The notes beneath the pieces were generated by a model. The model did not search any database, was not told the origin of the DNA, and worked only from the letters and a program-made list of their open reading frames with translations. 64,000 nt of DNA, from NCBI GenBank assembly GCA_030837965.1, contig JAUTXP010000056.1, forward strand, positions 1 through 64,000, read 5' to 3'. The stretch is from Acidimicrobiaceae bacterium (GTDB lineage Bacteria > Actinomycetota > Acidimicrobiia > Acidimicrobiales > JAUTXP01). A program made the translations under genes and the position numbers. This document shows, one piece after another, positions 35,380-58,767 of this stretch. Every line of letters begins with the position of its first letter. Position 1 is the stretch's first letter.

Positions 35380-35463
35380 GTCGGAGTGGCGGAATAGGCA
35401 GACGCGCCAGCTTGAGGGGCTGGTGTCCGCAAGGACGTGGGGGTTCAAGTCCCCCCTCCGACA
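35380..35463 (+). tRNA. tRNA-Leu (anticodon GAG)
   Basis: An 84-nt class II tRNA. The acceptor stem GTCGGAG pairs with CTCCGAC, with discriminator A. The anticodon stem CCAGC/GCTGG has loop TTGAGGG, giving anticodon GAG. A long variable arm (TGTCCGCAAGGACG) and the T arm GGGGG-TTCAAGT-CCCCC complete it. CCA is not encoded. The 3' third is duplicated at 63267-63292. Confidence 0.97.
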
Positions 35464-35465
35464 CG
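35440..35465 (+). repeat. attL: left direct repeat at the tRNA-Leu 3' end
   Basis: Positions 35440-35465 match 63267-63292 with one mismatch. The perfect core is CAAGTCCCCCCTCCGACACG (35446-35465). It covers the T arm and acceptor strand, so integration restores a full tRNA. Confidence 0.93.
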
Positions 35466-37127
35466 CTCCTGGCTATACGCGGGACGGGCTTCGACTTCGA
35501 TAAGCCCGCTCTCGTGATACGTCAGGGAGAGGCCGACTTCGTCATAGATGTCGGTCCGCTCCTCCGGGGTGAGGTAACCGTTCAGGGCTCGCACGATGTC
35601 CTTGAGCGCGGCGACCATCGCCCGGATCTCCTTCTTGGTCAGCACCCGCTCAGGAGCCGCGTTGCCAAGGACCCTCTCGGCCACAGCCCGCTCGGCCAGC
35701 ACGTCGGCGATCCACTTGCCGATCGTCGCCTCGTCGACGCCGGCGTCGAGCGCCTTGCGGTACTTGTCGAGGCGGTCGTCGCACGACTTGATCGTCTCGC
35801 GGGCGGCGGCGATGCGGGCATGGTCCTGGTTCTCGAGGTTCACGGACTGCGCCATGAGCTCGACCGTGTCCTCGATGTGCCGGTCGCTGAAGCTCTCCGC
35901 CAGCCACTTGTCGAGCTCGGGCACGATGAGCTTCTCCCTCACGTTGACCGACTTCGGATGCCGCTGCTTCGCCGCGCCGTACTCCTTCGGCGTCACGCAC
36001 CGGTAGTACGGCTCGTCGTGCAGCCAGGCTCCCTGCATCCGCCGGGCGCAGCAGGCGCAGAACAGGCGACTGCTCAAGCAGTAGACGTTCTTGCGGCGTG
36101 GGCGCACGACGGCGAACCGCTTGCCCGCTGCGGCCCGAAGTTGAGCGGCCTGGTCGAACAGCTCGTCCGACACGAGCGCCTCATGGGTCTTCTCGGCTGA
36201 CCAGACCCAGTCGCCCTTGTCGTTCCAGCGCATCTTGGTCTCGTAGCCCATGGCCACGTCCTCGATGTCCATGAGGACCTCGTCGCGGCGCTGCTTGTTC
36301 CAGACCTGCCTTCCGGTGTACCGGGGGTTGTCGAGGATCGCCCGCACCGCGGTCTTCGCCCATGCGCCGCCGTTGCCCTGGCGGTGCTTGTTGCGCTCGG
36401 GGTCGTGGGCCGAGGGAGACGGGATGCCGTCAGCCGTCAGCCCCTCGGCGATGGCGAGGACACCCTTGCCCGCCACGTACTCGGAGAAGATGCGGCCGAC
36501 GACGGGCGCGGCCACGGGGTCCGGCACCAGCCTGTGCAGCCTGGCCCCGTCAGCCGCCTTGGACGGGTTGGGGTGCGGCCCGGCGTCGCCCAGCATGTAG
36601 CCGTACGGGGGCCTGCCGCCCAGGAACCGCCCCTCAGTCGCCGCCTGTGCGGCCATGGCGGCGCGCACGCGGATCTTGATGCGGTTGCGCTCGCCCTTGC
36701 TCATGCCGCCGTACAGGCTCATCACCATGTCGTGGGCGTCGGAGCCGGGATCGACCGCGCCGCCCACCTCGGGCACCCAGAGCTCAACGCCGAAGTGGAC
36801 GAACAGGGGGAAGATCAGCCCGAACTGGTTGCCGTAGAACATGCGGTGCGGCTCGCCGATCACCACGGCGTCGAAGCCCCGCTCGGGGTCGCGCATCGCC
36901 ACGAGCAGGTCGGCCGAGCGCGGCCGGCGCTTCCAGGGCAGCGAGCGCGACTGGCCCTTGTCGAAGAACTCGGCGACGACCTCGCCGCCGTGCGGCTTGA
37001 TGAGCGCCTCGGCGCGCGCCAGTTGCCAGGCGCGCGAGGACTCGGGGTCTTGGTTGTCCTCGGTCGAGCAGCGGCCCGCGAAAGCGAACCGCTTGCCCGC
37101 CTGTTGGTTGTCGGGTCGGACGGTCAT
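35445..37127 (-). CDS. Large serine recombinase (integrase of the element)
   Basis: A 560-residue site-specific recombinase. The N-terminal resolvase domain has catalytic serine S21 in RCSTEDNQ and arginines in MSKGERNRIKIRVRAAM. The Recombinase domain (about 165-300, GGRPPYGYM ... NPRYTGRQVWNK) is followed by a zinc ribbon (FCACCARRM near 355, YYRCV near 374) and a coiled-coil region (about 420-500). Its TGA stop (35445-35447) lies at the attL core, so its last 6-7 codons are att sequence. Its ATG overlaps the stop of the 57-residue upstream gene. Use of a tRNA target by a serine rather than tyrosine recombinase is unusual. Confidence 0.95.
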   Translation of the reverse strand: MTVRPDNQQAGKRFAFAGRCSTEDNQDPESSRAWQLARAEALIKPHGGEVVAEFFDKGQSRSLPWKRRPRSADLLVAMRDPERGFDAVVIGEPHRMFYGNQFGLIFPLFVHFGVELWVPEVGGAVDPGSDAHDMVMSLYGGMSKGERNRIKIRVRAAMAAQAATEGRFLGGRPPYGYMLGDAGPHPNPSKAADGARLHRLVPDPVAAPVVGRIFSEYVAGKGVLAIAEGLTADGIPSPSAHDPERNKHRQGNGGAWAKTAVRAILDNPRYTGRQVWNKQRRDEVLMDIEDVAMGYETKMRWNDKGDWVWSAEKTHEALVSDELFDQAAQLRAAAGKRFAVVRPRRKNVYCLSSRLFCACCARRMQGAWLHDEPYYRCVTPKEYGAAKQRHPKSVNVREKLIVPELDKWLAESFSDRHIEDTVELMAQSVNLENQDHARIAAARETIKSCDDRLDKYRKALDAGVDEATIGKWIADVLAERAVAERVLGNAAPERVLTKKEIRAMVAALKDIVRALNGYLTPEERTDIYDEVGLSLTYHESGLIEVEARPAYSQERVGGGT

Positions 37128-37297
37128 GTGGACAGTTGTACGTCGACTTCATGGTCGTGCGCAGGGATATCCGCCGCCGCCCGCTGCAGCACCCGGAGCA
37201 GCACCGCCGCGGCTCGTGGAGTGAGCCGCGGCGGGTCCTCGGGCACCACCACCCGGATGGGCGGCGGGGGTTGTGCCTTTGGTCTTCGCTCGGTCAC
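37124..37297 (-). CDS. 57-residue protein coupled to the recombinase
   Basis: A GTG start at 37297 overlaps the stop of the upstream gene, and its own TGA overlaps the recombinase ATG. The protein is Pro/Arg-rich at the N-terminus (TERRPKAQPPPPIRVVVPED) with a helix LTPRAAAVLLRVLQRAAADI. No family is recognised. Its tight coupling makes a recombination directionality factor or recombinase partner plausible, but this is a guess from position. Confidence 0.6.
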   Translation of the reverse strand: MTERRPKAQPPPPIRVVVPEDPPRLTPRAAAVLLRVLQRAAADIPAHDHEVDVQLST

Positions 37298-37542
37298 GGG
37301 ACCTGCGCCCCTTCGAGGCGTGCGACTCGCTCGCGCAGGTCGGTGACGACGCCCTCTACGCGCTCGACCGCCTGGCCCACCCGGTCGACCGAGGAGTGAA
37401 GGGTGTCGAGGGACTGGTCGACTACGGCTGCCCGCTGCTGGCCGACGCGCCGGTCCGACGAGCGTGCCGCGGCGAACGTGAGCAACGCCGCGAGGGTGGG
37501 CGGGAGTGCGGCCACGACGGCCACCACGACGGCGACGGTCAT
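37294..37542 (-). CDS. 82-residue membrane-anchored coiled-coil protein
   Basis: One N-terminal membrane span (TVAVVVAVVAALPPTLAALL, then TFAAA) is followed by a heptad-patterned helix (QSLDTLHSSVDRVGQAVERV ... LRERVARLEG). It resembles small phage- and plasmid-borne anchor proteins but is not assigned. It overlaps both neighbours by 4 bp, in the leftward operon that ends with the recombinase. Confidence 0.6.
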   Translation of the reverse strand: MTVAVVVAVVAALPPTLAALLTFAAARSSDRRVGQQRAAVVDQSLDTLHSSVDRVGQAVERVEGVVTDLRERVARLEGAQVP

Positions 37543-38366
37543 GGGCGCCTCCCGAAGACGAGCACGTCCTCATGCGCCACCACGCGGAAGGGGTGCCCGC
37601 GCTCCCGAGCGCGACGGACCTCGGACAGTTGGAAGAACGACGCCCTGGGGACAAGGCGGTCGCCCCGGACCGCGGCCAGGAGGGCGACGTCGCGCTCGAT
37701 GAGCCGGAAGCCCGCCCTTGCCGCGGTGTCGACCAGGCGGCCGGGCAGGTCGACCAGCACGCCGTCGCGACGCCACGGCCGCGCCGTCAGCGCGACCACG
37801 CCGTCAGCCGCGAGCACGAACGACGCCTCGCGGAACATCGCCTCCATGGCCGCGAGGATCGTGTCGAGCCCTTGATGGGCCAGGTTGGCGGGGTCGGCCG
37901 AGTAGCGGTGGTCCCACTTCCGAACGCCGGCCCTGCTGGTGCGCACCCGGCCGTGCGTGGTCGCGCCGTACGGCGGCGAGGTCAGGATCAGCGCCACCTG
38001 GCCGGCCGCGTCCGAGGGGACGTACGACCGGAGGTGGCGGCAGTCGCCGAGGACGACCTCCGCTTCGCCGCTCGCGCCGTTGGCCCGGGCGTGGGCGACG
38101 TTCATCCTGGCGGCCGCCGACCACCGCGCCTCGTACTCGATGCCGATGGCGTCGCGTCCAAGGTGGATCGCCTCCACCAGGGTGGTGCCGATCCCGCACA
38201 TCGGGTCGAACACGAGATCGCCGGGCTTGGTGAAGGTGCTGATGGCGTGGGCGGCAAGCTCGGGGAGCATCTTGGCCGGGTGCGGCATCGAGTCGGGCAG
38301 ATACCGACCGCGCCGCTGCACCTGGCTCGGCCGGTTGGCGACGTGCCATACCGAGGTACTGGTCAC
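37539..38366 (-). CDS. Site-specific DNA methyltransferase (TSPPY type)
   Basis: A 275-residue DNA methyltransferase from the GTG at 38366. SAM motif I is DPMCGIGTT (54-62) and the catalytic motif IV is TSPPY (129-133), as in N4-cytosine and some N6-adenine enzymes of the beta class, with motif IV after motif I. The acidic motif II is in GIEYEARW. No restriction nuclease is adjacent, so it may protect the element from host restriction or mark its DNA. It overlaps the upstream paralogue by 4 bp. Confidence 0.85.
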   Translation of the reverse strand: MTSTSVWHVANRPSQVQRRGRYLPDSMPHPAKMLPELAAHAISTFTKPGDLVFDPMCGIGTTLVEAIHLGRDAIGIEYEARWSAAARMNVAHARANGASGEAEVVLGDCRHLRSYVPSDAAGQVALILTSPPYGATTHGRVRTSRAGVRKWDHRYSADPANLAHQGLDTILAAMEAMFREASFVLAADGVVALTARPWRRDGVLVDLPGRLVDTAARAGFRLIERDVALLAAVRGDRLVPRASFFQLSEVRRARERGHPFRVVAHEDVLVFGRRP

Positions 38367-38938
38367 GGGCGGCCACCCCCGAAGACAAGGACGTCGGCGT
38401 GGCGGACCGGCCCGCGCTCGCCGCCGTCGGCCAGCAGGGCGACCACGTGCTGGACGTAGTGGAGCCCGCCCGCGGCGGCGAGGTCGACGGCGGTGCCGAG
38501 CGCCTCCCCGCGGCCCAGGAAGCCGACGACAAGATGCCCGCCGGGCCGGAGCAGTGCAGCCGCCTGCTTCACGGTGGCCACGAAGGCGTCCCTCGGCGGG
38601 GCGAACGCACGTCCCGTCCGGAAGCACGGCTCCGGCGGCAGCACGACACCAAGGGCCACGTGGCCGTCGAACCCCTCGAGGCCCGCCTCGGGCCAGGCGC
38701 CGCCGAGGCCCGGCGTCGTGACGACGACGACTGGGGTGCGGCGCGCACGCACGGCGGCGAGGGCAACGTCGCTGCCGGTCGGCGCCAGGTCGAGCACCAC
38801 GTCGCCTGGAGCGGAGTAGGAGTCGACGATGTGCTGGGCGAGCCCCGAGCGGCCGCAGGCCTGGTCCTCTGTTGCGCCCTCGGGCGCGAGCTGCCAGAGG
38901 GCGAGGGGGACGTCGGGAAACGAGTTCTGGTCTGACAT
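38363..38938 (-). CDS. Degenerate paralogue of the adjacent DNA methyltransferase
   Basis: A 191-residue methyltransferase-fold protein, first in the leftward operon. It aligns with its neighbour: HIVDSYSAPGDVVLDLAPTG (36-55) against HAISTFTKPGDLVFDPMCGI, and both end in a DVLVFG-RP tail. Motif I is altered (LAPTGSDVAL), and where TSPPY should be there is VVLPPEP (98-104), so it should be catalytically inactive. Such pairs often form heterodimers in which one subunit catalyses and the other binds DNA. A function as specificity or regulatory subunit is inference. Confidence 0.7.
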   Translation of the reverse strand: MSDQNSFPDVPLALWQLAPEGATEDQACGRSGLAQHIVDSYSAPGDVVLDLAPTGSDVALAAVRARRTPVVVVTTPGLGGAWPEAGLEGFDGHVALGVVLPPEPCFRTGRAFAPPRDAFVATVKQAAALLRPGGHLVVGFLGRGEALGTAVDLAAAGGLHYVQHVVALLADGGERGPVRHADVLVFGGGRP

Positions 38939-39304: not shown

Positions 39305-40015
39305 ATGTCCCTTCACCAGTCGCCGTTCGATGCGCTTGAGTCGTCGTTCCGGCTCCTGTGCGAGCCGCCCACCAACATCGCCATCAACGGCGCAGAGGTG
39401 GGCTGGCCGCTCCCCCCTCGGCTCGTGCCGCTCGACGAGCTGCGCGGCCGCCTCCTCCACCCGGCCACCCCGTTCGAGGTCCGCGACCGGGTCATGCTCG
39501 TTCTGGCCCGGAAGGCGAAGTCCTCGGGCGGCTGCTGGACGGTGGCGCTGGCAGGGCTGCTGCTCCCTGGGCTCCGGGCGTCGATCGGGCCGCTGACCAG
39601 GCTCCACCCGAGGGAGGCCGCCGACATCGAGGCCGAGACCCTCGCCGAGCTCATGCGGGTGTTGGCGGCCTTCGACCACGACGACCGCGTCGCGGCCCGG
39701 CTGGTCTGGCGGGCAGCACGTCACACCCGCGAGCGCACGGCACGCGAGCTGACCCAGGCGGCCAAGCGCGAGCCGACGCCGCTGCCCGCCGCGCCACACC
39801 GCCCTTGGGGCCATCCCGACTTCGTCTTGGCGGAGGCGGTCGCAGCCGGAGTCATCACCGCAGCGGAGGCTGAGCTGATCGGCGACACCCGCATCGACGG
39901 CCGGAGCCTGTGTGCCTGGGCCAAGGCGAACGGCATCCCGGACGGTGCGGCGCGGATGCGACGAATGCGGGCCGAGCGACGCCTGGTCGAGTGGATCGTC
40001 AAAAAAAGTGCGTGA
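39305..40015 (+). CDS. Sigma-factor-like regulatory protein of actinobacterial mobile elements
   Basis: A 236-residue protein with a good ribosome-binding site (GAGGAGG). The segment PLPPRLVPLDELRGRLLHPATPFEVRDRVM, followed by helices IEAETLAELMRVLAAF and RVAARLVWRAARHTR, recalls proteins found at the head of transfer operons in actinobacterial elements. The C-terminus (ITAAEAELIGDTRIDGRSLCAWAKANGI) looks like a sigma region 4 or helix-turn-helix. It lies between two copies of the AAACC-GGTTT palindrome, so it is the best candidate for the switch regulator. The family name is uncertain. Confidence 0.55.
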   Translation: MSLHQSPFDALESSFRLLCEPPTNIAINGAEVGWPLPPRLVPLDELRGRLLHPATPFEVRDRVMLVLARKAKSSGGCWTVALAGLLLPGLRASIGPLTRLHPREAADIEAETLAELMRVLAAFDHDDRVAARLVWRAARHTRERTARELTQAAKREPTPLPAAPHRPWGHPDFVLAEAVAAGVITAAEAELIGDTRIDGRSLCAWAKANGIPDGAARMRRMRAERRLVEWIVKKSA

Positions 40016-40198: not shown

Positions 40199-40525
40199 AT
40201 GCACCGATCCCACCGTCGCATCGCCAGCGTGGCGACCGCGGCCTGCGTCTCGCTGGTGTTCGCCGCGAGCCCGGCGTGGGCCGAGGGCGAGCCGCCGTCC
40301 CTCGGCAAGGTCGTCGACAACGCCCGCCTCTGGGTGATGGGGATGCTGGCCGGGCTGGCGACCCTGTACTTCGTCATCGGCGCGGCGCGCTACGTGATGG
40401 CGGGCGGCGACCCCGGCCAGGTGGAGAGGGCCAAGCAGACGCTGAAGTCGGCAATGGCGGGCTACGCCCTCGCACTGCTGGCGCCGGTCGTGCTCGCCGT
40501 GCTGCGCGGGATCGTGGGCGCGTGA
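40199..40525 (+). CDS. VirB2/TrbC-like pilin subunit
   Basis: A 108-residue type IV secretion pilin candidate. A signal peptide ends near AWA-EG (residue 28), and two hydrophobic helices (WVMGMLAGLATLYFVIGAAR and AMAGYALALLAPVVLAVLRG) flank a short polar loop with GGDPGQVERAK, the classic VirB2 pattern. AGGAGG precedes the ATG. It overlaps the VirB6-like gene by 1 bp and opens the transfer operon. Confidence 0.82.
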   Translation: MHRSHRRIASVATAACVSLVFAASPAWAEGEPPSLGKVVDNARLWVMGMLAGLATLYFVIGAARYVMAGGDPGQVERAKQTLKSAMAGYALALLAPVVLAVLRGIVGA

Positions 40526-41622
40526 TGGCGGTCGACCGGCTGCTCCTCGCCGCCGTGGTCGCCGCAGTGCTCGTGTTCGGCGCGACCAAGGCGTGGGCCG
40601 AGCCGGCGCCGCCGCCGGTCCAGGCCGCGAGCACCACCACCACGACGACCATCGACCCGAGCGCGCCGCCCACCACTGCCCCTCCCGACTCGGCGTCCGC
40701 GCCGTCAGGGGACGGCGGCGGCAACACGGGCCACGGCGTCTTCGACATCGCCGGGCGGGTGCGAGACGCCATCGACGGCTGGTTCAGCCACCTGGCCGTC
40801 GACGCGCTGAACCCCGCGCTCGACCTGCTGGGGCGGACGGTGTTCTCGACGCCGAACTTCACCGGCGACGGCCGGGTGCGCGACCTGTGGCGCATCTCGT
40901 GGGGCGTCGCCAACTCCGTCTTCCTGCTGTTCGTCCTCGGCGCGGGCGTGCTCGGCATGTCGTTCGAGACCCTCCAGACCCGCTACGCGCTCAAGGAGCT
41001 CCTGCCGCGGCTGGCCGTCGCCTTCGTGGCCGCCAACGCCAGCCTCTTCTTCGCAGGGTTCGCCATCAACGTCGCCAACGGGCTCTCGGAGGCGTTCGCC
41101 TCGCAGGGCGTCGGCACCGCGCGGGGCGCGGCGGGCGTCGTGCTCGTGCTGGTCGAGGGGGCCATCGACGGGGGCGGGATCTTCCTGCGCATCCTCGGGC
41201 TCGCCATCGCCGTGCTCGTGGTCGGCGTGCTCGGGACCTACGTCGCCCGCCTGGCCACGATGGTCGTCCTCGTCGGGGCCGCGCCGCTGTTCCTCATCTG
41301 CCACGCGCTGCCCGGCTCCGAGGGGGCGGCGCGGCTGTGGTGGCGGGCGCTCACCGGCTGCCTCGCCGTGCAGGTCGGCCAGGCCTTCGTGATGGTCACC
41401 GCCGTGCGCGTCATGTTCGACGCAGACGGCAGGCGCACGACCGGGATGCCCGGCGGGCCGCTCATGGACCTGCTGGTCGTGGGGTGCCTGTTCTGGATGA
41501 TGCTGCGCATCCCCAGCTACGCCCGGCGGCTCGTCTTCAACCCCCGCACCAACGCCATGGGCCAGGTGGCCCGGCACGCGGTCGTCGGCAAGGCCGTGGG
41601 CGCGCTGAAGGCGGCCGTGTGA
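40525..41622 (+). CDS. VirB6/TrbL-like polytopic membrane protein
   Basis: A 365-residue protein with a signal-like N-terminus, a Thr/Pro-rich extracytoplasmic linker (30-70) and about six membrane spans (including SVFLLFVLGAGVLGMS, LAVAFVAANASLFFAGFAI and ATMVVLVGAAPLFLICHAL). The PLFLICHALPGSEGAARLWW stretch is typical of TrbL-like channel components in Gram-positive conjugation. The ATG overlaps the pilin stop and its stop overlaps the next ATG. Confidence 0.85.
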   Translation: MAVDRLLLAAVVAAVLVFGATKAWAEPAPPPVQAASTTTTTTIDPSAPPTTAPPDSASAPSGDGGGNTGHGVFDIAGRVRDAIDGWFSHLAVDALNPALDLLGRTVFSTPNFTGDGRVRDLWRISWGVANSVFLLFVLGAGVLGMSFETLQTRYALKELLPRLAVAFVAANASLFFAGFAINVANGLSEAFASQGVGTARGAAGVVLVLVEGAIDGGGIFLRILGLAIAVLVVGVLGTYVARLATMVVLVGAAPLFLICHALPGSEGAARLWWRALTGCLAVQVGQAFVMVTAVRVMFDADGRRTTGMPGGPLMDLLVVGCLFWMMLRIPSYARRLVFNPRTNAMGQVARHAVVGKAVGALKAAV

Positions 41623-42518
41623 TGGCGAGCGTCCGCATCCCCGCCGACGTCGACCGCGAGGACGTGCTGCTGGCGGGCATGACCGCGCGCCAGCTCGGGC
41701 TCGCCTCCGCCGGCGCGCTGATCCTCGCCGGGCTGTGGGCCGCGTCGAAGACGGTGGTCCCTGCTCCCCTGTTCCTCGCGCTCGCCTCGCCGGTGGCCGC
41801 GGTGTTCGCCGTGGTCGCGCTCGGGCGGCGCGACGGCGTCAGCGCCGACCGGCTGCTGTTCGCCTGGCTGCGCCACGCGCTCGGGAGCCGCCGCCTCGTG
41901 CCCGCGCCGGAGGGCGTCCCGGCCCTGCCGGCTGGCGTCGACGGCCCGCCTCCCCCGGCCGCCCTCCGGCTGCCGGTCGAGGCCGTGCACGACGGGGTGC
42001 TGGACCTCGGCGGCGACGGCCTTGCCGCGGTCTGCCGGGTGGCGTCGCTCAACTTCGGGCTGCGGACCGAGGCCGAGCAGGAGGCCATCGTCGCCTCGTT
42101 CGCCCGCTGGCTGAACTCGCTGTCCGGCCCCGTGCAGGTCGTGGTGCGGGCCGAGCGCGTCGACGTCGCCGCGCTGGTGGAGTCGCTGGCGTCGGCAGAG
42201 GGGCTGCCCCACGCCGCGCTGGCCGAGGCGGCGCGGGACCACGCCGCCTTCCTGTCCGACCTCGCGTCCCGACGCGACGTGCTCCGGCGGGTGGTGCTGC
42301 TCGTGCTGCGAGAGCCAGCCGGGCCGGGCGCGGCCGACCTGCTGCGCCGCCGGGTGGACGACGCCGTGTCCGCCCTGTCCGGCGCGGGCGTGTCCGTGTC
42401 ACCGCTGTCGGATGAGGACGCGGTCGCCGCGCTGGCGTCGGCCGCCGACCCCGACGCGCGCCGCTGCCCGCCCGGCCTGGCACTGCCCGGCCAGACGATC
42501 ACGAGGAGGGCCGAGTGA
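41622..42518 (+). CDS. PrgI/VirB3-like conjugation protein
   Basis: A 298-residue protein beginning SVRIPADVDREDVLLAGMTA, a signature of PrgI-family/SCO6880-type proteins next to VirB4. Two membrane spans follow (about 25-70). A cytoplasmic part (about 110-298) contains VEAVHDGVLDLGGDGLAAVC and GLRTEAEQEAIVASFARWL, as in the N-terminal region of TraC-like ATPases. It would recruit the VirB4 ATPase encoded next; coding regions overlap by 4 bp. Confidence 0.85.
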   Translation: MASVRIPADVDREDVLLAGMTARQLGLASAGALILAGLWAASKTVVPAPLFLALASPVAAVFAVVALGRRDGVSADRLLFAWLRHALGSRRLVPAPEGVPALPAGVDGPPPPAALRLPVEAVHDGVLDLGGDGLAAVCRVASLNFGLRTEAEQEAIVASFARWLNSLSGPVQVVVRAERVDVAALVESLASAEGLPHAALAEAARDHAAFLSDLASRRDVLRRVVLLVLREPAGPGAADLLRRRVDDAVSALSGAGVSVSPLSDEDAVAALASAADPDARRCPPGLALPGQTITRRAE

Positions 42519-44254
42519 AGGCCGTCGCGTTCCCGAGGAAGCAGAAGGGGACCGCTCCGGCCCTGGCGGGCCTGCCGCTGCCCGACTCCGTCGAGGTCGA
42601 GCCCAAGCGCCTGCGCGTGGGCGAGGGGTGGCGCTCGACGGTCGCCGTCAACGGCTACCCCCGCGAGGCGCGGCTCGGCTGGCTGGAGCCGCTGGTGGCC
42701 CACCCCGGCGCAGTCGACGTGTCAATGCACGTCGAGCCCATCCCCGCCCCGGTGGCCGCCGACCGGCTGCGCCGCCAGCTCGCGAGGCTCGAGTCGAGCC
42801 GCCGGCTGGACGCGTCCAAGGGCAGGCTGCCCGACCCTTCCCTCGACGCGTCGGCCGAGGACGCGCGCGACCTGGCAGGCCGCCTGGCGCGGGGCCAGGG
42901 CCGCCTCTTCTCGCTCGGCCTCTACGCCACCGCCCGCGGCTCCGACGAGGAGGAGCTGGCGCGGGAGTCCACGCGGCTGCGGGCGCTGTGCGACTCGCTG
43001 CTCCTCGACACCGTGCCCTCGACCTTCCGCTCCCTCCAGGGCTGGATGACCACGCTGCCCCTCGGCCTCGACCTGCTGCGGATGCGCCGCACGGTCGACA
43101 CCGACGCCCTGGCCGCGTCGTTCCCCTTCGCATCGGCGGAGCTGTCGGACCCGTCGGGCGTCCTCTACGGCCTCAACGCCCGCACCAGCGGGCTGGTGTT
43201 CTGGGACCGCTTCGCCCAGGCCAACTACAACTCGGTCGTCCTGGCCCGCAGCGGTGCGGGCAAGAGCTACCTGGCCAAGCTGGAGCTCCTCCGCTCGCTC
43301 TACACCGGCGTCGAGGCCGCGGTCGTGGACCCCGAGGACGAGTACTCGCGGCTGGCCGGGGCGGTGGGCGGGGCCGTGCTGCGGCTGGGCGCGCCCGGCG
43401 TGCGGCTCAACCCCCTCGACCTCGACGGCCAGCCGGACGCCCTCGTGCGCCGGGCCATGTTCGTCCACACCCTGGTCGCCGTGCTCCTGGGCGAGGAGCC
43501 TCGGCCCGCGGGACGTGCCGCCCTCGACAGGGCGATCCTCGCTGCGTATGCGGCCAAGGGGATCACCGCTGACACCGCCACACACCGGAGGCCTGCACCG
43601 CTGCTGAGGGACGTCGCCTCGGGGCTCGAATCCGACCGGGATGACGAGGGGAGGCTGCTGGCCGGGCGCTTGGCCCCCTTCACGTCGGGCACCCACCGGA
43701 TGCTCTTCGACGGCCCCACCACGACCCGGCCCGAGGGGCACCTCGTGGTGTTCTCCCTGCGCGACCTGCCCGACGAGCTCAAGGCGGCGGGCACGCTGCT
43801 GACGCTCGACTCCATCTGGCGCCGCGTCGCCGACCCGGCCCAGCGGAGGCGGCGGCTGGTGCTGGTGGACGAGGCCTGGCTCCTCATGCGCGACCGGGCC
43901 GGGGCGGTGTTCCTCAACCGCCTGGCCAAGTCGGCCCGCAAGCACTGGTGCGGGCTGACCGTCGTCACCCAGGACGCGGCCGACCTGCTGGGGAGCGACC
44001 TCGGCCAGGCCGTGGTGTCCAACGCGGCCACGCAGGTCCTGATGCGCCAGGCCCCGCAGGCGATCGACGCGGTGGCCGAGGCGTTCCGGCTCTCCCAGGG
44101 CGAGCGCCAGTTCCTGCTCGGGGCCGAGCGCGGCCAGGCCGTGCTGCTCGGGGGCGGCGAGCGCGTGGCCTTCCGGTCGTGCGCCAGCCAGGAAGAGGAC
44201 CGGCTCGCCACGACCGACCCCGCCCAGCTCGCAGACGAGGAGGACGTCCTGTGA
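42515..44254 (+). CDS. VirB4/TraC-like type IV secretion ATPase
   Basis: A 579-residue ATPase powering the conjugation channel. Walker A is ARSGAGKSYLAK (around 243-250) and Walker B LVLVDEAWLLM (around 447), with DPEDEYSRLAGAVGG and a conserved TQDAADLLGSDLGQAVVSNAATQVLMRQ motif. The GTG start overlaps the PrgI-like stop. It is shorter than many VirB4 proteins because the N-terminal part is carried by the preceding gene. Confidence 0.94.
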   Translation: MKAVAFPRKQKGTAPALAGLPLPDSVEVEPKRLRVGEGWRSTVAVNGYPREARLGWLEPLVAHPGAVDVSMHVEPIPAPVAADRLRRQLARLESSRRLDASKGRLPDPSLDASAEDARDLAGRLARGQGRLFSLGLYATARGSDEEELARESTRLRALCDSLLLDTVPSTFRSLQGWMTTLPLGLDLLRMRRTVDTDALAASFPFASAELSDPSGVLYGLNARTSGLVFWDRFAQANYNSVVLARSGAGKSYLAKLELLRSLYTGVEAAVVDPEDEYSRLAGAVGGAVLRLGAPGVRLNPLDLDGQPDALVRRAMFVHTLVAVLLGEEPRPAGRAALDRAILAAYAAKGITADTATHRRPAPLLRDVASGLESDRDDEGRLLAGRLAPFTSGTHRMLFDGPTTTRPEGHLVVFSLRDLPDELKAAGTLLTLDSIWRRVADPAQRRRRLVLVDEAWLLMRDRAGAVFLNRLAKSARKHWCGLTVVTQDAADLLGSDLGQAVVSNAATQVLMRQAPQAIDAVAEAFRLSQGERQFLLGAERGQAVLLGGGERVAFRSCASQEEDRLATTDPAQLADEEDVL

Positions 44255-45171
44255 AGAAGATCGCCATCGCCGCCGCGGCGGCCGTCGTCGTGCTGCCCGT
44301 CGTGCTGATCGGGGCCGTCAGCTTCGCGGTGCAGGTCTCGTGCCTGGACGCATGCACGACGCCCGGCAAGGCCCACACGATCACCAGCGACATCCCCATC
44401 GAGATGGGAGGCCTGTACCGGCGAGCGGCCGAGCGCTTCGGCATCCCGTGGGAGGTGCTCGCCGGCGTCGGGCGCGTCGAGTGCGAGCACGGCCTCGATC
44501 CGCGGTGCTCGCGCCCCAACGAGGCGGGGGCCGAGGGGCCGATGCAGTTCCTGCCCGCCACGTTCGCCCGCTGGTCCTGGGCGTCCGGGAGCCCGGACCC
44601 GTCGCCCTACGACGCCGAGGACGCCGTCTACGCGGCCGCGGCCAAGCTGGCGGCGGACGGGGCAGCGACCGACCCCTCCGCCGCGCTGTTCTCCTACAAC
44701 CACTCAGCCGCCTACGTGGCCGAGGTCGAGTCATGGGCCCTCCGCTACGGCTGGCAGCCGCCGGATCTCTCAGTCCTGGCGACTGCCGTCCTCGACCACC
44801 CGCGCATCGCGCTGCGCCCGCAGGCGGACTCCGACGTGCGCAGCGGCGTAGTCGATGCCCGCGTGCTGCGCCTGCTGCTCGTGGCCGCCACCAGCCACCG
44901 GCTCTCCTACGTCGGCCCGCTGGTCTCAGGCCACGACTACTTCGTAAATGGGACCGACCGCCCGTCCAACCACGCCTTCGGCCGGGCCGTCGACATCCCG
45001 GTGGTGGACGGCAAGGCGGTGTCGAAGGGCAACGACGCAGCCCTCGACGTGATCTCGATGGTCGGCCATGACGCCGACGAGGTCGGCTCGCCGTGGCCGC
45101 ACCCGCTCGACGGGCCGAGGACGTTCGACGAGGGCCACTCCGACCACCTCCACTTCGGGTGGGACGCGTGA
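44251..45171 (+). CDS. Cell-wall hydrolase: lytic transglycosylase plus M15-like peptidase (VirB1-like)
   Basis: A 306-residue protein with a signal anchor (VKKIAIAAAAAVVVLPVVLI). The SLT-like domain has catalytic glutamate E77 in GVGRVECEHGLDPRCS, with GAEGPMQFLPATF. The C-terminal domain has SNHAFGRAVDIP (near 240) and DHLHFGW (near 300), the zinc-binding pattern of VanY/M15 peptidases. It should open peptidoglycan for the transfer channel by cutting both glycan and peptide. GTG start, overlapping virB4-like and coupling-ATPase genes. Confidence 0.88.
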   Translation: MKKIAIAAAAAVVVLPVVLIGAVSFAVQVSCLDACTTPGKAHTITSDIPIEMGGLYRRAAERFGIPWEVLAGVGRVECEHGLDPRCSRPNEAGAEGPMQFLPATFARWSWASGSPDPSPYDAEDAVYAAAAKLAADGAATDPSAALFSYNHSAAYVAEVESWALRYGWQPPDLSVLATAVLDHPRIALRPQADSDVRSGVVDARVLRLLLVAATSHRLSYVGPLVSGHDYFVNGTDRPSNHAFGRAVDIPVVDGKAVSKGNDAALDVISMVGHDADEVGSPWPHPLDGPRTFDEGHSDHLHFGWDA

Positions 45172-47546
45172 GGCGGGCGGCGCTGCTGCTGGCGGCCGAG
45201 GCGCCGACTGGCACCCCGGCCGGCCCGCTCGTACGAGTGCTGCTCGACCCCGATGGCGCGATGCGGAGGGCACTGGCCGGTCTGCGGGCCACGCTCGAGG
45301 CAGCCGGACCACGGCTGCTCCTGCTCGCAGGCGCCGTCGCCATCGCGGCAGTCGCGGTCCTCGCACTGCGGCGGTCTCGACGGGCCCGGATGCAGTTGGG
45401 CGCTCACGTCGTGACCGTCCTCGCACCGCCCGACGTCGATGCCTCCGGCGGCGAGGCGCTGTGGCGGAACCTTCACGACGTCCTCCGGCCGAGGTGGCGG
45501 GGGCTCGTGGCCGCCAGACCGCATGTGTCGTTCGAGTATGCGTGGACTCCCGACGGCTTGAGCGTCTCGCTCTGGGTCCCCGGGTGCGTCCCCGTCGAGC
45601 TGGTCGAGCGCGCCGCGGCGGCGGCATGGCCCGGCGCGACCACCAAGACCGCAGAGTTCCAGCCCACCGAGGCGGGCCGCCGTCGTCGGCCGCGGCTCAC
45701 CGGCGAGTTTCGGCTCGCCATGCCCGGTTGGCTGCCGCTGCGCACCGACTTCGACGCCGACCCGCTGCGGGCGATGATCGGAGCCGCGCACGGGACGGGC
45801 GCGGGAGAGTCAACGGCGGTGCTCGTCCTCGCCCGGCCTGCCCACGGCAGGGCGGTGACGCGGTGCCGCCGGGCGGCAAGGGACCTGCGCACGGGGCGGC
45901 CGCCCACCCCAGCGCTGCGACTGCTCGACCTCTTCACCCCCGGCCCCGCGGCGCAGCGGTCGCCCATCGACCCCTCCACGGCACCCGAGATCAGGGCGAT
46001 CGTGACGAAGTCCGAGTCGCCGCTGTGGGCCGTGCGAGTTCGCTATGCGGTCGCGTCAGGCCCTGCCGGCGACGGCCCCGCGGGCCTTCCGCTCAAGACG
46101 CGGGCGCACGCGGTCACCGCCGCCTTCGGCCTCTACACCGGGCGCAACCGCCTCGTGCGCCGACCACTGCGCGGGCGCCACGGCGTCTTCGACGGCCGCG
46201 TGCTCAGCCGAGGCGACCTGCTGTCCACCCCCGAGCTGGCGGCGCTCGCCCACCTGCCCACCGACCGCATCGTGCCCGCGCTGTCGCGCGCCAGCGCTCG
46301 GCCGGTCGCGCCGCCTCCGGGGATCGAGTCGATCGAGGCCGAGGGCAAGGTGCTGGGCGACTCCGACGCGGGCGGCGACAGGCCCGTGGTGCTCCGCCCT
46401 GCGGACGCCCGCTACCACGTCCACGTCATGGGAGCGACGGGCAGCGGCAAGTCGACCCTGCTGACGAACATGATCCTGGAGGACGTCGAGCACGGGCGTG
46501 GCGTCGTCGTCATCGACCCGAAGGGCGACCTGGTCGCCGACGTCCGCGACCGCCTCAAGCAGGCACCTGAAGGCGGACTGGTCGTTCTCGACCCGACGAG
46601 CGCGGAGGGGCGGCCGACGCTGAACGTCCTTGAGGTGCCCGAGGGTGTCAGCCCCGACCTCGTCGTCGACCACGTGGTGGGGGTGTTCAGCCGGATCTTC
46701 GAGCACCACTGGGGACCCCGGCTGGAGGACGTGCTCCGCTCCGCCTGCCTCACGCTGCTCCTCGGGCGGCACGACGCCGACAGACCCGCTGCCACGCTCT
46801 CGTCCATCCCCGAGCTGCTGTCCGACCTCGAGGCCCACAAGTGCCTGCTGGGGCCGCGCACGCCGGGCGAGCTCACCGGCTTCTGGCAGTGGTACAGCGC
46901 GCTCAACGAGGGCCAGCGTGCCCAGGTCGTCGGGCCTCTGCTCTACAAGCTTCGGGCCTTCCTCCTGCGCCCGTACATCCGCCAGATCGTCGAGGGGGAC
47001 GAGTCGAGCTTCGACATCGGCAGGGTGCTCGACGGCGGCCTGCTGCTGGTGCGGGTGCCCAAGGGCGAGCTGGGCGAGGACACCGCCAGGCTCCTCGGCA
47101 GCTTCGTCGTGGCCAAGACCTGGCAGGCGGCCACGGCCCGGGCCCGACGCAGTGCCGCGCATCGAACCGACGCAGCCGTCTACGTGGACGAGTGCCAGAA
47201 CTTCGTGACGACCCTGCCGCGCAGCTTCGACGAGGTGCTGGCCGAGTCCCGCGGGTACGGCGTGTCATGGGTGCTGGCCCACCAGCACCTCGGCCAGCTT
47301 CCGAGGGACCTGCGAGACGCCGTCTCGGCCAACGCCAGGAACAAGGTCCTGTTCAACATGTCGCCGGAGGACGCGTTCGTCCTGTCGCGCCACACCTCGC
47401 CTCGGCTGGCCGAGCACGACCTGGCCAACCTGGCCGCGTACCAAGCCGCCGTCCGGCTCGTCGTGGCGGGCCAGGACAAGCCCGCATTCACCATGAAGAC
47501 CCGGCCGGCGCCCCAAGCCCTGCACCAGGAAGGAGCCGCCGAATGA
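45168..47546 (+). CDS. VirD4/TraD-like coupling ATPase
   Basis: A 792-residue protein with one N-terminal span (PRLLLLAGAVAIAAVAVLAL), a SCO6880-like middle part, and a P-loop ATPase: Walker A GATGSGKSTLL (about 422-432), VVVIDPKGDLVADV, Walker B AAVYVDECQNF (about 670) and the TraG/TraD segment GVSWVLAHQHLGQLP. It would bring the DNA-protein complex to the channel. A GTG start at 45168 overlaps the hydrolase stop. Confidence 0.92.
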   Translation: MRRAALLLAAEAPTGTPAGPLVRVLLDPDGAMRRALAGLRATLEAAGPRLLLLAGAVAIAAVAVLALRRSRRARMQLGAHVVTVLAPPDVDASGGEALWRNLHDVLRPRWRGLVAARPHVSFEYAWTPDGLSVSLWVPGCVPVELVERAAAAAWPGATTKTAEFQPTEAGRRRRPRLTGEFRLAMPGWLPLRTDFDADPLRAMIGAAHGTGAGESTAVLVLARPAHGRAVTRCRRAARDLRTGRPPTPALRLLDLFTPGPAAQRSPIDPSTAPEIRAIVTKSESPLWAVRVRYAVASGPAGDGPAGLPLKTRAHAVTAAFGLYTGRNRLVRRPLRGRHGVFDGRVLSRGDLLSTPELAALAHLPTDRIVPALSRASARPVAPPPGIESIEAEGKVLGDSDAGGDRPVVLRPADARYHVHVMGATGSGKSTLLTNMILEDVEHGRGVVVIDPKGDLVADVRDRLKQAPEGGLVVLDPTSAEGRPTLNVLEVPEGVSPDLVVDHVVGVFSRIFEHHWGPRLEDVLRSACLTLLLGRHDADRPAATLSSIPELLSDLEAHKCLLGPRTPGELTGFWQWYSALNEGQRAQVVGPLLYKLRAFLLRPYIRQIVEGDESSFDIGRVLDGGLLLVRVPKGELGEDTARLLGSFVVAKTWQAATARARRSAAHRTDAAVYVDECQNFVTTLPRSFDEVLAESRGYGVSWVLAHQHLGQLPRDLRDAVSANARNKVLFNMSPEDAFVLSRHTSPRLAEHDLANLAAYQAAVRLVVAGQDKPAFTMKTRPAPQALHQEGAAE

Positions 47547-48634
47547 CCCCCACCCAGCCGGTGGCCCAGCCAGTGGCCCAGCCGCCCGCCCAGCCGGTGG
47601 CCCGGCAAGTTGGCCCTCCAGCACAGCAAAACAGCCGCGTCGCCCCAGGTCAGCCCACCTCCCGACCCGCCCGGCGAGAAAGCGGACTCCTGAAGGGGGC
47701 AAGCCCCCTTCAGTTCGGCCCCCGGCTGTCAGCCGATGAGCTTCGCTACTCGCTTGCTCATCGGCTGACGCCCAGGGACCGCGACCTGCTGCACGCACTG
47801 GCGCGCCTCGGGGTGCTCACCGCGCCGCAGGTCGCGCAGGCGTTCTTCCAGACCGAGTGCCGCGCCCGCAAGAGGCTGGTCGAGCTCGTGCGGCTCGGCG
47901 CTCTCGGCCGGTTCCGCCCCCACCGCGAGTCGTGGGGCTCCCACCCCTACCACTACGTGCTCGGTCCCGCGGGCGCGGCGGTCGTCGCCGCCGACCGGGG
48001 CGACGACCCGGCGCGCACGCGCAAGCGGCTGCTCGCCAGCCGGGTCATCGCGCTGAGCCGGACCCAGCGCCTCCAGCACCTCGTGGGGGTCAACGGCGTG
48101 TGGGCTGCGCTGACAGGGCGGGCGCGCCGGGAGGAGGGCGCTGAGCTGACTCTGTGGGTCGGCGAGGCCCGCTGCGCGGCATGGACCAAGGGCATCGTCC
48201 GCCCCGACGCCTACCTCGAATGGTCGGCCGGCTCGCACGCGGCGGAGTGCTTTGTCGAGTTCGACCGGGGCACAGAGCGGCTCCACCGCCTGACCGCGAA
48301 GCTCGCGGGCTACGAGCGGTTCGAGGCCGAGCGGGGGGCGGCCGCATGGGTCCTGTTCGCCTTCACGTCCGCACGCCGCGAGGCCACCGCCCGCCGGGCG
48401 CTGGCGGGGGCGACAGTGCCGCTCGCCACCGCCGCCCTCTGCGACGGGCAGACCGCCGCGGACGCGGGCTGGGCGCCCATCGATCGAAACGAGCGCATGC
48501 GCCTAGAGGAACTGGCGCGACTCCGGCTGCCCCCTGGCTCACAGAGCCGGGTGGCCGAGGGCCGCGGCCGTGGTTGGCGCTTCGACAGGTCCCGATTCGA
48601 CGACACCGAGGAGGCGCCTATCGACATGTCATGA
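47543..48634 (+). CDS. Replication-relaxation family protein
   Basis: A 363-residue protein with a Pro/Gln-rich N-terminus (about 1-45), then a winged helix (LTPRDRDLLHALARLGVLTAP ... CRARKRLVELVRLGALGRFR) and a nuclease-like C-terminal domain with RPDAYLEW ... CFVEFDRGTERLHRL. This matches the replication-relaxation family found beside coupling ATPases in actinobacterial elements, thought to act on plasmid DNA replication or relaxation. No classical MOB relaxase is present, so this may take that role. The ATG overlaps the coupling gene. Strong hairpins lie inside its 5' part. Confidence 0.83.
   Translation: MTPTQPVAQPVAQPPAQPVARQVGPPAQQNSRVAPGQPTSRPARRESGLLKGASPLQFGPRLSADELRYSLAHRLTPRDRDLLHALARLGVLTAPQVAQAFFQTECRARKRLVELVRLGALGRFRPHRESWGSHPYHYVLGPAGAAVVAADRGDDPARTRKRLLASRVIALSRTQRLQHLVGVNGVWAALTGRARREEGAELTLWVGEARCAAWTKGIVRPDAYLEWSAGSHAAECFVEFDRGTERLHRLTAKLAGYERFEAERGAAAWVLFAFTSARREATARRALAGATVPLATAALCDGQTAADAGWAPIDRNERMRLEELARLRLPPGSQSRVAEGRGRGWRFDRSRFDDTEEAPIDMS
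47690..47769. other. Two nested-repeat hairpins inside the replication-relaxation gene; candidate oriT or replication origin
   Basis: CTGAAGGGGGC-AA-GCCCCCTTCAG (47690-47713) is an 11-bp perfect stem with a 2-nt loop. Fifteen bases later GTCAGCCGATGAGC (47728-47741) and GCTCATCGGCTGAC (47756-47769) form a 14-bp perfect stem with a 14-nt loop. Stems this long are not expected from coding constraint. Nicking or replication origins commonly have this shape. Confidence 0.5.
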
Positions 48635-53866: not shown

Positions 53867-54754
53867 TTAGCCCCCGTCAGCCGCGCTGGTATCGCCCTCG
53901 AGTTGTTCGACATCGATTGTGCGTGCGGGCGGCATTTCAGGAGGCGGTGGCGCGCTGCCTGGGGGCGCGATCATCCGGATTTCAGTCGCAACACGGTAGA
54001 GGACATCGTCGACCGTCGAGATCCTGTCTGCCGGTGGGACAGGGAGGCCTACGTAGCCGTGGACGCCCTCACGCCACGCCACGATTCCGGCACCCTCCAG
54101 ATAGGTCTTCACAAGCGCTTGAGCTTCAGTGACCATCCGCTCCACGCTGTCCGCAGGGCGCAGTCGAGCCGCCCACAGGAAGTAGGTCTTCGGGAAAACA
54201 GATCCACGCCAAACGTCCCAATGCTCGATCGACGTTAGGTGCTGACGGCGAAACAGCTTCAAGTCCGTCGCCGCGAACTTGAGTTCCTTTCGGCGGTTCG
54301 TCCAGTCGGCCATCGCTCCGCGGGCGGGATCGGTGGGCGTCGCTGGCGCCCCTGTCACCTTTGTCTCCAGACAGACGAGAGGATCCACCTCCCGGTCAGG
54401 CCACGCCACGTCTATTTGATGCGTCTGCGAGAAGCCTTGAACGCGGACTCGGGGTGCAAGGCGGTGGGAGCTTTGGTTCTCCAGCAGAAGCGCGAGCAGA
54501 GTCGCGAACCAATTGCCCTTCCCGCGATAGACCGCGGCGAGGCGCTTGCCTGGCGCCTTGCGCTGGTCGCCCATCCCATCAGGCGGGAGGCCAGCGGCTC
54601 GATACGCGTCCAGGGTCCACATCAGATCCAGCCAGTCCGGCTCAACCTCGCTGAACATACGCACATGGGTGGCCTGGACGCGCTGTATCAGGGCGTCCCA
54701 CTTCTCTCCTGGATGCCCAACCCGCGACCGGAGCGCACTCTCCGTCTCCACCAC
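53867..54754 (-). CDS. PD-(D/E)XK nuclease-like protein, probable restriction endonuclease
   Basis: A 295-residue protein with the nuclease signature QIDVAWPD ... PLVCLETKVTG: D115 on one strand, then E130-x-K132, and a Q/E-rich helix before it. It lies 40 nt downstream of an N6-adenine methyltransferase on the same strand, the standard type II restriction-modification order. That pairing supports restriction of unmethylated DNA. The recognition site is unknown and no named enzyme is recognised with certainty. Confidence 0.68.
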   Translation of the reverse strand: MVETESALRSRVGHPGEKWDALIQRVQATHVRMFSEVEPDWLDLMWTLDAYRAAGLPPDGMGDQRKAPGKRLAAVYRGKGNWFATLLALLLENQSSHRLAPRVRVQGFSQTHQIDVAWPDREVDPLVCLETKVTGAPATPTDPARGAMADWTNRRKELKFAATDLKLFRRQHLTSIEHWDVWRGSVFPKTYFLWAARLRPADSVERMVTEAQALVKTYLEGAGIVAWREGVHGYVGLPVPPADRISTVDDVLYRVATEIRMIAPPGSAPPPPEMPPARTIDVEQLEGDTSAADGG

Positions 54755-54794
54755 GCTTCCTAGCGTCGCACATCGAGACGACCGCGCCGATGGA

Positions 54795-56471
54795 CTACTG
54801 CCCTAGACGGCGCTCTCGAAGAGAGGCCGCCGCGTCGTGAAGCTCCGCGACGTCGGCCAGCGGCAGTCCAATCGTCTCGTGCAGCAGAACTTCATCAACA
54901 CGCTTAGCGACGTTCGTCCATAGTCCATCCTGCAGTTGTCGATCGAGCGCTTGGCGCTCGGCCTTCAGGCGATCCCAGGCAGCGAGTAAAGCTTTGATCG
55001 ATGGGACGGGAAGCGAGAGAGCCTCCCGGGGCTCCATCTTGAGCATCCCGCCCCCGTACGCGCGGCCGTGGATCTCTGCGCCGAGCATGGTGACTGAGTT
55101 GAGCGCGAGCAGTGGCAGAGCGGCGCCGACCGCTCGTGGGGTATCGCGCTTGAGGCGCACACCGTGCATCGAGTTGAGAAGACTGGTTTTCGCCGTGTTA
55201 CGAACGAATCTCGGGTACCTGTGGCTCATGTACGTGAAGAACAAGTCAGGCGGCGCGACCACCGGTGGCCTCCACCACGGCGACCTCACCTGACACTTGT
55301 ACGCCTGGTTCACGCCCTCGCGCTCGCCCCGTTCTACGTAACGTCGAAGGGACGGTGTCTCATCCTCGGGCTCGGGGCACAGTAACCACACACGTTCTCC
55401 GGCAGCCTTCAACCGCTCCCAGTGCGCCTTAGTGAAGGTCGTGCCACGCAGATGGCGGGAGCCCGGAGGACAGATCGGCCGTAACAGTTCTTCCGTGAGG
55501 CCGTACTCGTGCCGGGCAGCCTCGGACAGTGCGAAGTAATGGTTCGCACCTGTGACCGTGCCGAGCTCGACGCTGCCGATCTGGCTGAGATTCAAGAAGT
55601 GCGAAGCGACAACCTCGCGATACCGGCGTCGGCGCGCAAGTGGCAGCAGGAGGTCGGTCCACTTGCCCTCACTCGCGGGAGTCACACTCACGCTGTCTCC
55701 AAAGTGAAGCGAGGCAAGGTCCGAAGCGTCCTCCACGTATACGAGGCTGAAGCTGTCGCAACCGCCACTCCCATGAGCGAGCAGCAGAACCACCTTCTCG
55801 AGCGCGTCGTCGAATTGGAGCCGCTCGAACATGACAAGGGTGACGCCAGCGAAGCGGTGGCGGAGCCATCGCCGAATCGGCTCCGCATAGTGCACGGTAA
55901 GGAGTTCCGCCGGCAGAACCATGGCAAGCCGGCCATCAGGCTTGAGAAAGCCCGACGAGTGAACAACTACTGACGCCCACGAAGAAGCGAGCCCGGACAG
56001 CCTCACACCCTGCTTCAGTGCCGCCGCGATCGATCGTTGCCGCGCCGCGCCACGATGCTCCTGATACCGCACGAACGGAGGGTTGCCCACGACTGCGTCG
56101 ACCAACGGCAGCGCGCTGCCGAATTCGTCAGGCGTTGGGATTGCGAACACGTCGCTCGGGATGAGGTGTGCATCCAGCCCTTCGTCCTCGAGCAGTGCCA
56201 TCGACGCGTCCAGTGAGGGGCGGTGAAGGTCAACACCGAATACTTGATCGTCGAGGCGACTCGGCTCGCAGCCCAGCTCGTGCAGTCGGCGCCCAGCCGC
56301 CAGGAGGAAAACTGCCTCGCCGCAAGTCGGATCAAGGACCGTTGTGGCCGCGTTCCGTACCGCCCAGCCGGCAAGAAAGTCCGCGATAGCCGGAGGCGTG
56401 AAGAACGCGCCGCGCGCCTTACGGTCGCCGTCCTCTGGTCGCAGGGCGCTCAGCGCCGGTGTATCCCGCAC
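54795..56471 (-). CDS. N6-adenine DNA methyltransferase (TaqI-like, gamma class)
   Basis: A 558-residue methyltransferase. Motif X is GAFFTP (21-26), motif I DPTCGEAVF (47-55) and catalytic motif IV NPPFV (130-134), the order of gamma-class N6-adenine enzymes such as M.TaqI. The C-terminal half (about 280-558) would be the target-recognition domain (GTVTGANHYFALS and LLALNSVTMLG are typical). It is expected to protect sites from the adjacent nuclease. A 26-bp palindrome lies about 45-70 bp upstream. Confidence 0.9.
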   Translation of the reverse strand: MRDTPALSALRPEDGDRKARGAFFTPPAIADFLAGWAVRNAATTVLDPTCGEAVFLLAAGRRLHELGCEPSRLDDQVFGVDLHRPSLDASMALLEDEGLDAHLIPSDVFAIPTPDEFGSALPLVDAVVGNPPFVRYQEHRGAARQRSIAAALKQGVRLSGLASSWASVVVHSSGFLKPDGRLAMVLPAELLTVHYAEPIRRWLRHRFAGVTLVMFERLQFDDALEKVVLLLAHGSGGCDSFSLVYVEDASDLASLHFGDSVSVTPASEGKWTDLLLPLARRRRYREVVASHFLNLSQIGSVELGTVTGANHYFALSEAARHEYGLTEELLRPICPPGSRHLRGTTFTKAHWERLKAAGERVWLLCPEPEDETPSLRRYVERGEREGVNQAYKCQVRSPWWRPPVVAPPDLFFTYMSHRYPRFVRNTAKTSLLNSMHGVRLKRDTPRAVGAALPLLALNSVTMLGAEIHGRAYGGGMLKMEPREALSLPVPSIKALLAAWDRLKAERQALDRQLQDGLWTNVAKRVDEVLLHETIGLPLADVAELHDAAASLRERRLGQ

Positions 56472-56516
56472 GGTGGGCCTCCCAACACGAAACTACACGA
56501 ATGTAACTCCGGCCAG

Positions 56517-56542
56517 TGTAATCGAACGTGTGTTCGATTACA
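56517..56542. promoter_or_regulatory. 26-bp palindrome upstream of the methyltransferase
   Basis: TGTAATCGAAC-GTGT-GTTCGATTACA (56517-56542) is a perfect 11-bp inverted repeat in the otherwise gene-free 377-nt stretch 56472-56848. It may be an operator for the methyltransferase-nuclease pair, or terminate the upstream transcript. No other feature was seen in this gap. Confidence 0.7.
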
Positions 56543-56848
56543 AGGTGCAGTTAGCGCCACCTCTGCCCGCATGAAGCATCCGAGGTAGTTGGAGCAGGCT
56601 CCGTGGGACCGGTGCTCCGGACGACGCTCTTCGACGGCGTGCGTCCGTGCATCGCCACCCTCTGTGACCGGGGCGCCACACCCCTCGTGGTACACGATTC
56701 CGTGATGTCGCCTACACCGCAGCGTCTGATCGGTTGGGCGACGTCATGCACGTCATCCACCCTCCATTTGCACCCTGAGGGTTGTATCGACTCGACAGCC
56801 GGTCTATTTCTCGTCGCCGGCGACATCGGTCTGGCTCGAGTTGAGCGG

Positions 56849-57472
56849 CTACAGACACCTCAACTCTCGAGCGTACGGACGCACGCTTGGCACGCTCGTC
56901 ATCACTTGCCGGAGGAAGTCGACGTCGTACAACGCGACCAGCGCTGCGAGCACGAGCGAGACAGGCGAGCCTGCATCGAGGGGGATAGCGGGCTGCCTGG
57001 TGTTGATCGGCTGCGTCACCGGAAGAGACCGCCCTGTGCGTCCGAAGGACGTAATTCGCTGCACGTGGAAGAACATGTGCCTGGGTCCCGCTCGTTCGGG
57101 CGTTTCGAAGCGGTTGCCGTTCGCCTTGAGCTTGTTGCCGTCGAGCACGAACATCGCGATGTAGAGCCGAAGGAAGGGCGCCGCGGAGGAGAAGTCCCAC
57201 CTCAACGCGACGACTGGGATCCAGATCGCTCCAAGGTCCGACGCCGGTCCATACACGAAGTTCGACTGATCGTCGCCGATGGAGACGATTGGGCCTCCTC
57301 GGGGGTGCAACAACCGTCGCAACTCGAAATGGTCGATGGGCGGCCAGTCGCTCGTCACCCGGTTGCGAAGCAATAGCGCCTGCGCGTTGTAGAGCTTGGC
57401 CTCACGAGCTTCAAGTGCAGCGAGCCACACGAGCACATCCGCGAGCGCCCGAGTCGCGCGGGTGTCTGGCAT
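56849..57472 (-). CDS. Unknown protein in the GHKL/receiver operon
   Basis: A 207-residue protein whose ATG at 57472 overlaps the receiver-protein stop by one base. It has a helical N-terminus (ALADVLVWLAALEAREAKLY), a middle part PIVSIGDDQSNFVYGPASDL, and FLRLYIAMFVLDGNKLKANG. No family is recognised and no catalytic motif is evident. Tight coupling implies that it works with the two upstream proteins, perhaps as effector or adaptor. Confidence 0.7.
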   Translation of the reverse strand: MPDTRATRALADVLVWLAALEAREAKLYNAQALLLRNRVTSDWPPIDHFELRRLLHPRGGPIVSIGDDQSNFVYGPASDLGAIWIPVVALRWDFSSAAPFLRLYIAMFVLDGNKLKANGNRFETPERAGPRHMFFHVQRITSFGRTGRSLPVTQPINTRQPAIPLDAGSPVSLVLAALVALYDVDFLRQVMTSVPSVRPYARELRCL

Positions 57473-58764: not shown

Positions 58765-58767
58765 GCG

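Follow-up and report, generated by a model that had tools for sequence, protein, structure and literature searches.

An active methyltransferase gene overlapped by that of a conserved degenerate relative in actinobacterial integrative conjugative elements: a putative heterodimer

Pairs consisting of an active methyltransferase and a dead relative are well known in eukaryotes, with METTL3-METTL14, DNMT3A-DNMT3L, and MTA1-MTA9 as examples, and M1/M2 tandem methyltransferases occur in restriction systems with asymmetric sites. In METTL3-METTL14 and MTA1-MTA9, the active enzyme forms a heterodimer with a paralogue that has a degraded active site (PMC10908127, PMC9174199), and in DNMT3A-DNMT3L the active enzyme is regulated by a paralogue without catalytic activity (PMC10908127). 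In bacteria, the split C5 methyltransferases M.AquI and M.EcoHK31I represent DNA methyltransferases that are built from two polypeptides (PMC3404938). The literature that we searched, with partial coverage, yielded no described case of an active/dead pair in bacterial DNA modification. Here we describe overlapping genes for an intact methyltransferase (beta) and a degenerate relative (psi) in a DNA stretch of 64,000 nt, called the window, of an Acidimicrobiaceae bacterium (contig JAUTXP010000056.1, positions 1 to 64,000; the genome consists of 88 contigs).

The pair is part of an integrative conjugative element (ICE) of about 27.8 kb with a type IV secretion system (T4SS), which is inserted at the tRNA-Leu(GAG) gene at 35380-35464. 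An integrase, att repeats, the T4SS, and a relaxase-like gene are all present. The following features were used in the analysis:

35441-35464, plus strand: attL, the 3' end of tRNA-Leu(GAG)
35445-37127, minus strand: large serine recombinase (Resolvase, Recombinase, and zinc ribbon), stop codon within the tRNA gene
37294-37542, minus strand: 82-aa coiled-coil-like ORF, overlapping the end of beta, 73% identity to the copy in the second ICE of the genome
37539-38366, minus strand: beta, 275-aa SAM-dependent methyltransferase with motifs X (HPAKM), I (DPMCGIGTT), and IV (TSPPYG) all present
38363-38366, minus strand: stop-start overlap GTGA of psi and beta, 4 nt, indicative of translational coupling
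38363-38938, minus strand: psi, 191-aa pseudo-methyltransferase with a retained Rossmann core, motif I, motif IV, and two flanking segments being gone
39305-40015, plus strand: divergent gene opposite the pair, 236 aa, kept in relatives, without family
40199-48634, plus strand: conjugation operon (T4SS pilin, VirB6-like, PrgI, VirB4, SLT lytic transglycosylase, T4CP, Replic_Relax)
63268-63291, plus strand: attR, repeat of the tRNA-Leu 3' end with one mismatch, right end of the ICE

Several further observations were made on the element. Serine recombinases that integrate into tRNA genes are described as rare (PMC3218068); the one in the window uses the tRNA-Leu gene as its site and has its own stop codon inside that gene (35380-37127). 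Two small ORFs lie between the recombinase and beta (37124-37542), and the smaller one has PPxLTxxAAxxLLR in common with an ORF at 15981-16184 of a Streptomyces plasmid locus (L101) and might encode an excision factor. The cargo at 53867-61071 contains genes for an Eco57I-like methyltransferase and a putative type II restriction enzyme (PADLOC), followed by those for a protein of 207 aa, a receiver-like protein, and one that contains two HATPase domains; this may be a defence island. An AbiEi-type antitoxin gene (62499-63095) is located just within attR, and a partner toxin was not recognized by eye in the ORF list. Just beyond attR, at 63439-63942, an ORF resembles the core of an IS3-type transposase.

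The pair itself has the recombinase on one side and the divergent conjugation operon on the other. As a first-pass annotation of the window had described, its two genes overlap, and the coordinates given there were confirmed. Both genes are on the minus strand. The start codon of beta is the GTG at 38366 within the overlap; a mechanically predicted 509-aa ORF starting at 39068 was rejected as the beta gene. The reported contrast between catalytic and degenerate motifs was also confirmed, because in aligned columns beta has DPMCGIGTT and TSPPYG where psi has DLAPTGSDV and VLPP.

In beta, the motifs follow the order X-I-IV. The protein matched the Pfam family N6_N4_Mtase (PF01555) with 63.4 bits (cut-off 26.7), and UPF0020 was also matched. 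In alignments of 24 sequences each, SAM motif I and motif IV, (S/N/D)PP(Y/F/W), were intact in all 24 beta proteins and in none of the 24 psi proteins. An AlphaFold2 model of beta, calculated with alignments, had a pTM of 0.82. The nearest folds were the tRNA enzymes Trm11 and Trm14 (Z about 19), and the nearest solved chains by sequence were DNA methyltransferases, mostly over motifs X-I. The predicted fold alone does not settle whether DNA or RNA is the substrate. The pair might modify tRNA or rRNA, comparable to Trm6-Trm61 or Trm11, perhaps as a countermeasure against tRNA-cleaving nucleases of the host or of defence systems; the top fold matches of beta, i.e. Trm11, Trm14, and TrmN, and its UPF0020 matches are in line with such a target. 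However, beta, in which motif I starts at residue 54 of 275, is too short for a THUMP domain, and no match to this domain was found. In addition, motif IV reads TSPPYG, and DNA methyltransferase profiles scored best by sequence, though mostly over motifs X-I. Modification of RNA is thus regarded as distinctly unlikely. Judged from known families, the TSPPY motif and the missing THUMP domain favor a DNA substrate, and beta is an intact methyltransferase with DNA as its probable target.

The psi protein matched no family in Pfam, NCBIfam, PHROGs, or PADLOC, and it represents an undescribed protein family without a Pfam entry. The degenerate motifs differ between carriers: the window protein has DLAPTGSDV and VLPP, and the Micromonospora proteins have DLAxGPQL and TGWPP. 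Most psi proteins also have neither the insert after motif IV nor the RxSFFQLxxVRxAR segment near the end, both of which are found in beta and in alpha, a full-length second methyltransferase of some relatives. According to the first-pass annotation, psi and beta align along their length and share a DVLVFG-RP tail. Direct BLASTP between the two was weak (best E 0.001), and therefore family profiles were needed to examine the alignment. With hhalign, the 24 psi sequences matched the 24 beta sequences over the C-terminal half with a probability of 97.7 and an E of 1.5e-12, and in an alignment of 17 sequences the N-terminal (I/L)xVW strand and helix A of both proteins also matched up. Of the tail, HEDVLVF and HADVLVF do align, but the exact ending in GRP is not kept in relatives. 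The AlphaFold2 model of psi, also calculated with alignments, had the fold of a SAM methyltransferase (pTM 0.79); against SAM methyltransferases Z reached 13.2, and 4qtt was superimposed with an rmsd of 2.9 over 139 residues. Taken together, the profile comparison and the predicted model identify psi as a methyltransferase homologue by sequence and by fold.

A scan of genome contigs with beta revealed 23 loci whose homologues were full-length or nearly so and had 48-54% identity, in Micromonospora, Salinispora, Actinoplanes, Catellatospora, Nocardia, Acidimicrobiales, and others. Twenty-two of these loci and both copies of the source genome made up the set of 24 pairs. In all 24 aligned loci psi is directly upstream of beta, which rules out chance and verifies the pair as the conserved unit for which the earlier annotation had suggested a search. 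The genes overlap by 4, 8, or 11 nt in 20 of the loci, and the other four have gaps or no clear start. In every locus with upstream sequence an open frame ends at or near beta; the 23rd scanned locus (L041), which is cut by a contig end, contains only a weak psi-like fragment. The psi frame is open in all aligned loci (Micromonosporaceae, Nocardia, Acidimicrobiales) and also in Streptomyces. Two more psi-beta pairs were found outside the set, on plasmid p1 of Streptomyces sp. BHT-5-2 (L101) and in genome G581 (L125).

A profile search of 396 genomes of the phylum detected beta in six genomes and no psi lacking beta. A single beta without a partner was found (G649, L126), in a locus without detected T4SS genes, and this case counts against psi being a subunit. 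Searching 395 genomes of the class with the single psi sequence gave real hits only in its own genome, the others being fragments near E 1e-4. Viral contigs and phages yielded generic matches, mostly to motifs X-I, and a phage origin was therefore dropped. The conserved coupling of a dead paralogue to an active enzyme matches what would be predicted for an obligate or supporting partner.

Selection was quantified at 19 loci. The median dN/dS values were about 0.36 for psi and 0.16 for beta (170 pairs, which are not independent; Nei-Gojobori counts). Psi evolves at about twice the rate of beta, which was also counted against the subunit reading. The ratio for psi argues that the gene is kept by purifying selection and that its open frames are not noise.

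The genomic context of the pair was compared between elements. Most relatives with enough sequence contain the same divergent gene and T4SS genes. The source genome has a second, ICE-like locus on contig C54 (L104) with psi, beta, the 82-aa ORF (73%), the divergent gene, and a different serine recombinase. Between the two ICEs, identity is 75% for beta and 41-47% for psi, but 29% for the recombinases. The serine recombinase type of the window is also present in L021 and L101, another serine type occurs in C54 and G434, and a tyrosine integrase is located beside the pair in G547 and G581. Because the recombinase types differ between elements, the pair belongs to the conjugation backbone. The proposal that it forms an anti-restriction device operated with the recombinase is not supported on this point, because recombinases with 29% identity adjoin the same pair family and tyrosine integrases are found elsewhere. 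A conjugation backbone with psi is common to Micromonospora, Salinispora, Actinoplanes, Streptomyces, and Acidimicrobiales.

Three genomes were informative with respect to the origin of psi. In G547, a full-length alpha (DPMCGIGTT, TSPPYA) is encoded upstream of beta with an 8-nt overlap, adjoining the same T4SS genes. In G434, alpha is also intact (DPLCGIGTT, TSPPYG), and alpha and beta are on two contigs with a shared end sequence. In G683 (L122, C126), the catalytic Tyr codon of alpha is replaced by TAG and a frame change follows later, and the beta next to this alpha is intact. This locus also contains an extra, N-terminally truncated beta 6 kb away, and it might be affected by an assembly error. 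No alpha beyond these was found in the orders or the class of the carriers.

The motif YxQH is present in 23 of 24 psi proteins and in alpha, but in no beta. YLQH has also been named in an interface loop of MTA1 (PMC9174199), which we took as a chance likeness. For 11 of 15 psi proteins alpha was the best BLASTP match, though only two alpha compared with 19 beta sequences were available. In an unrooted tree, psi, alpha, and beta each formed one group, showing that psi did not arise by recent duplication of its neighbor; three groups do not tell whether psi belongs with alpha. A tree rooted with four distant outgroups joined psi with beta (82/41), yet psi with alpha was not rejected (AU p 0.25), so that an origin from alpha is likely but not proven. 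Gene position, YxQH, and the best BLAST hits indicate that psi is most likely a degenerate alpha. By these comparisons, psi is a separate, old lineage and not a decayed copy of the adjoining beta. Of the "retained dead copy" of the first-pass annotation, the dead paralogue, its retention, its coupling, and its conservation were corroborated; it is not a copy of the neighboring gene, but an older lineage whose place is taken by a full-length alpha in relatives.

The lost motifs and segments of psi and the broken alpha of G683 could also mark psi as a decaying pseudogene in the process of being lost. However, this is highly improbable in view of the open frame in all aligned loci, the retention in 24 of 24, and the purifying selection at the 19 loci tested.

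For an active enzyme that overlaps and is dose-matched with a conserved dead relative, a complex is the best explanation. Our best reading, which we consider reasonably probable, is therefore a modification methyltransferase, probably of DNA, that is a heterodimer with a second subunit that has become a pseudoenzyme. Two active enzymes in tandem, alpha and beta, were probably the ancestral state, which is still present in some relatives, and alpha would have lost its active site and been retained as a structural partner. Beta would bind SAM and carry out the methyl transfer, for which N4 of cytosine or N6 of adenine in DNA is the most likely acceptor. Psi, translated just before beta from the same message, would have lost SAM binding and catalysis; most likely it binds beta via the retained Rossmann core and thereby completes the fold, the DNA-binding surface, or the specificity. 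The more specific proposal of a mobile-element DNA methyltransferase that is an obligate active/dead heterodimer, and that arose via alpha-beta, a broken alpha, and a fixed psi at one ICE position, is plausible but tentative.

Psi might instead be a separate effector with a Rossmann fold, e.g. one that inhibits beta or that binds DNA and regulates the divergent conjugation operon, in which case co-translation would set only the dose. Its position between beta and the divergent T4SS operon in relatives, its faster evolution, and the loss of TRD-like segments would agree with such a role. However, a helix-turn-helix or another family was not found in psi, and its co-conservation and overlap with beta suit a subunit better; a separate effector is thus unlikely.

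The putative heterodimer would likely be used to mark the DNA of the ICE and the host, which would aid establishment in restricting recipients or control transfer. With Pfam and NCBIfam, no endonuclease family was found among the genes beside the window pair, the two small ORFs being without family, and the separate restriction enzyme and methyltransferase cargo of the element is 16 kb from the pair. Because no recognized restriction gene adjoins the pair, self-protection of the transferred DNA or transfer control would be likelier than restriction-modification. Heterodimerization, the substrate, and an anti-restriction role of the pair are inferred.

Compared with known systems, the alpha-beta loci look like M1/M2 tandems, because two methyltransferases are adjacent. 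In psi-beta, in contrast, one enzyme is dead and no restriction gene was identified beside the pair. A tandem of two active enzymes, as in type IIS M1/M2 systems, is absent from the window, where psi lacks the motifs, and is found in sequence only in G547 and G434. Separately, a Helicobacter plasmid (L144, 2953-4891) was seen to carry two adjoining methyltransferase genes and, behind these, a large ORF; they may constitute a restriction system. By analogy with M1/M2 tandems, both subunits of the complex may originally have been active, as the alpha-beta relatives suggest. Because two intact enzymes still exist in living relatives, the path from a pair of active subunits to one active and one supporting subunit can be tested. 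M.AquI and M.EcoHK31I divide the motifs of one enzyme, whereas in psi-beta both chains have the fold and one has all the motifs. Trm11 and Trm14 have the closest predicted fold to beta (Z about 19, as above), but beta lacks a THUMP domain and has a different motif IV. METTL3-METTL14 and MTA1-MTA9 are eukaryotic MT-A70 proteins of the DPPW family, with extra subunits in MTA1c, whereas psi-beta is a bacterial, putative dimer of the TSPPYG family encoded by overlapping genes. DNMT3A-DNMT3L are mammalian C5-cytosine enzymes, and their likeness to psi-beta lies in the inactive paralogue. By analogy, METTL14, MTA9, and DNMT3L can serve as models for psi as a partner of beta.
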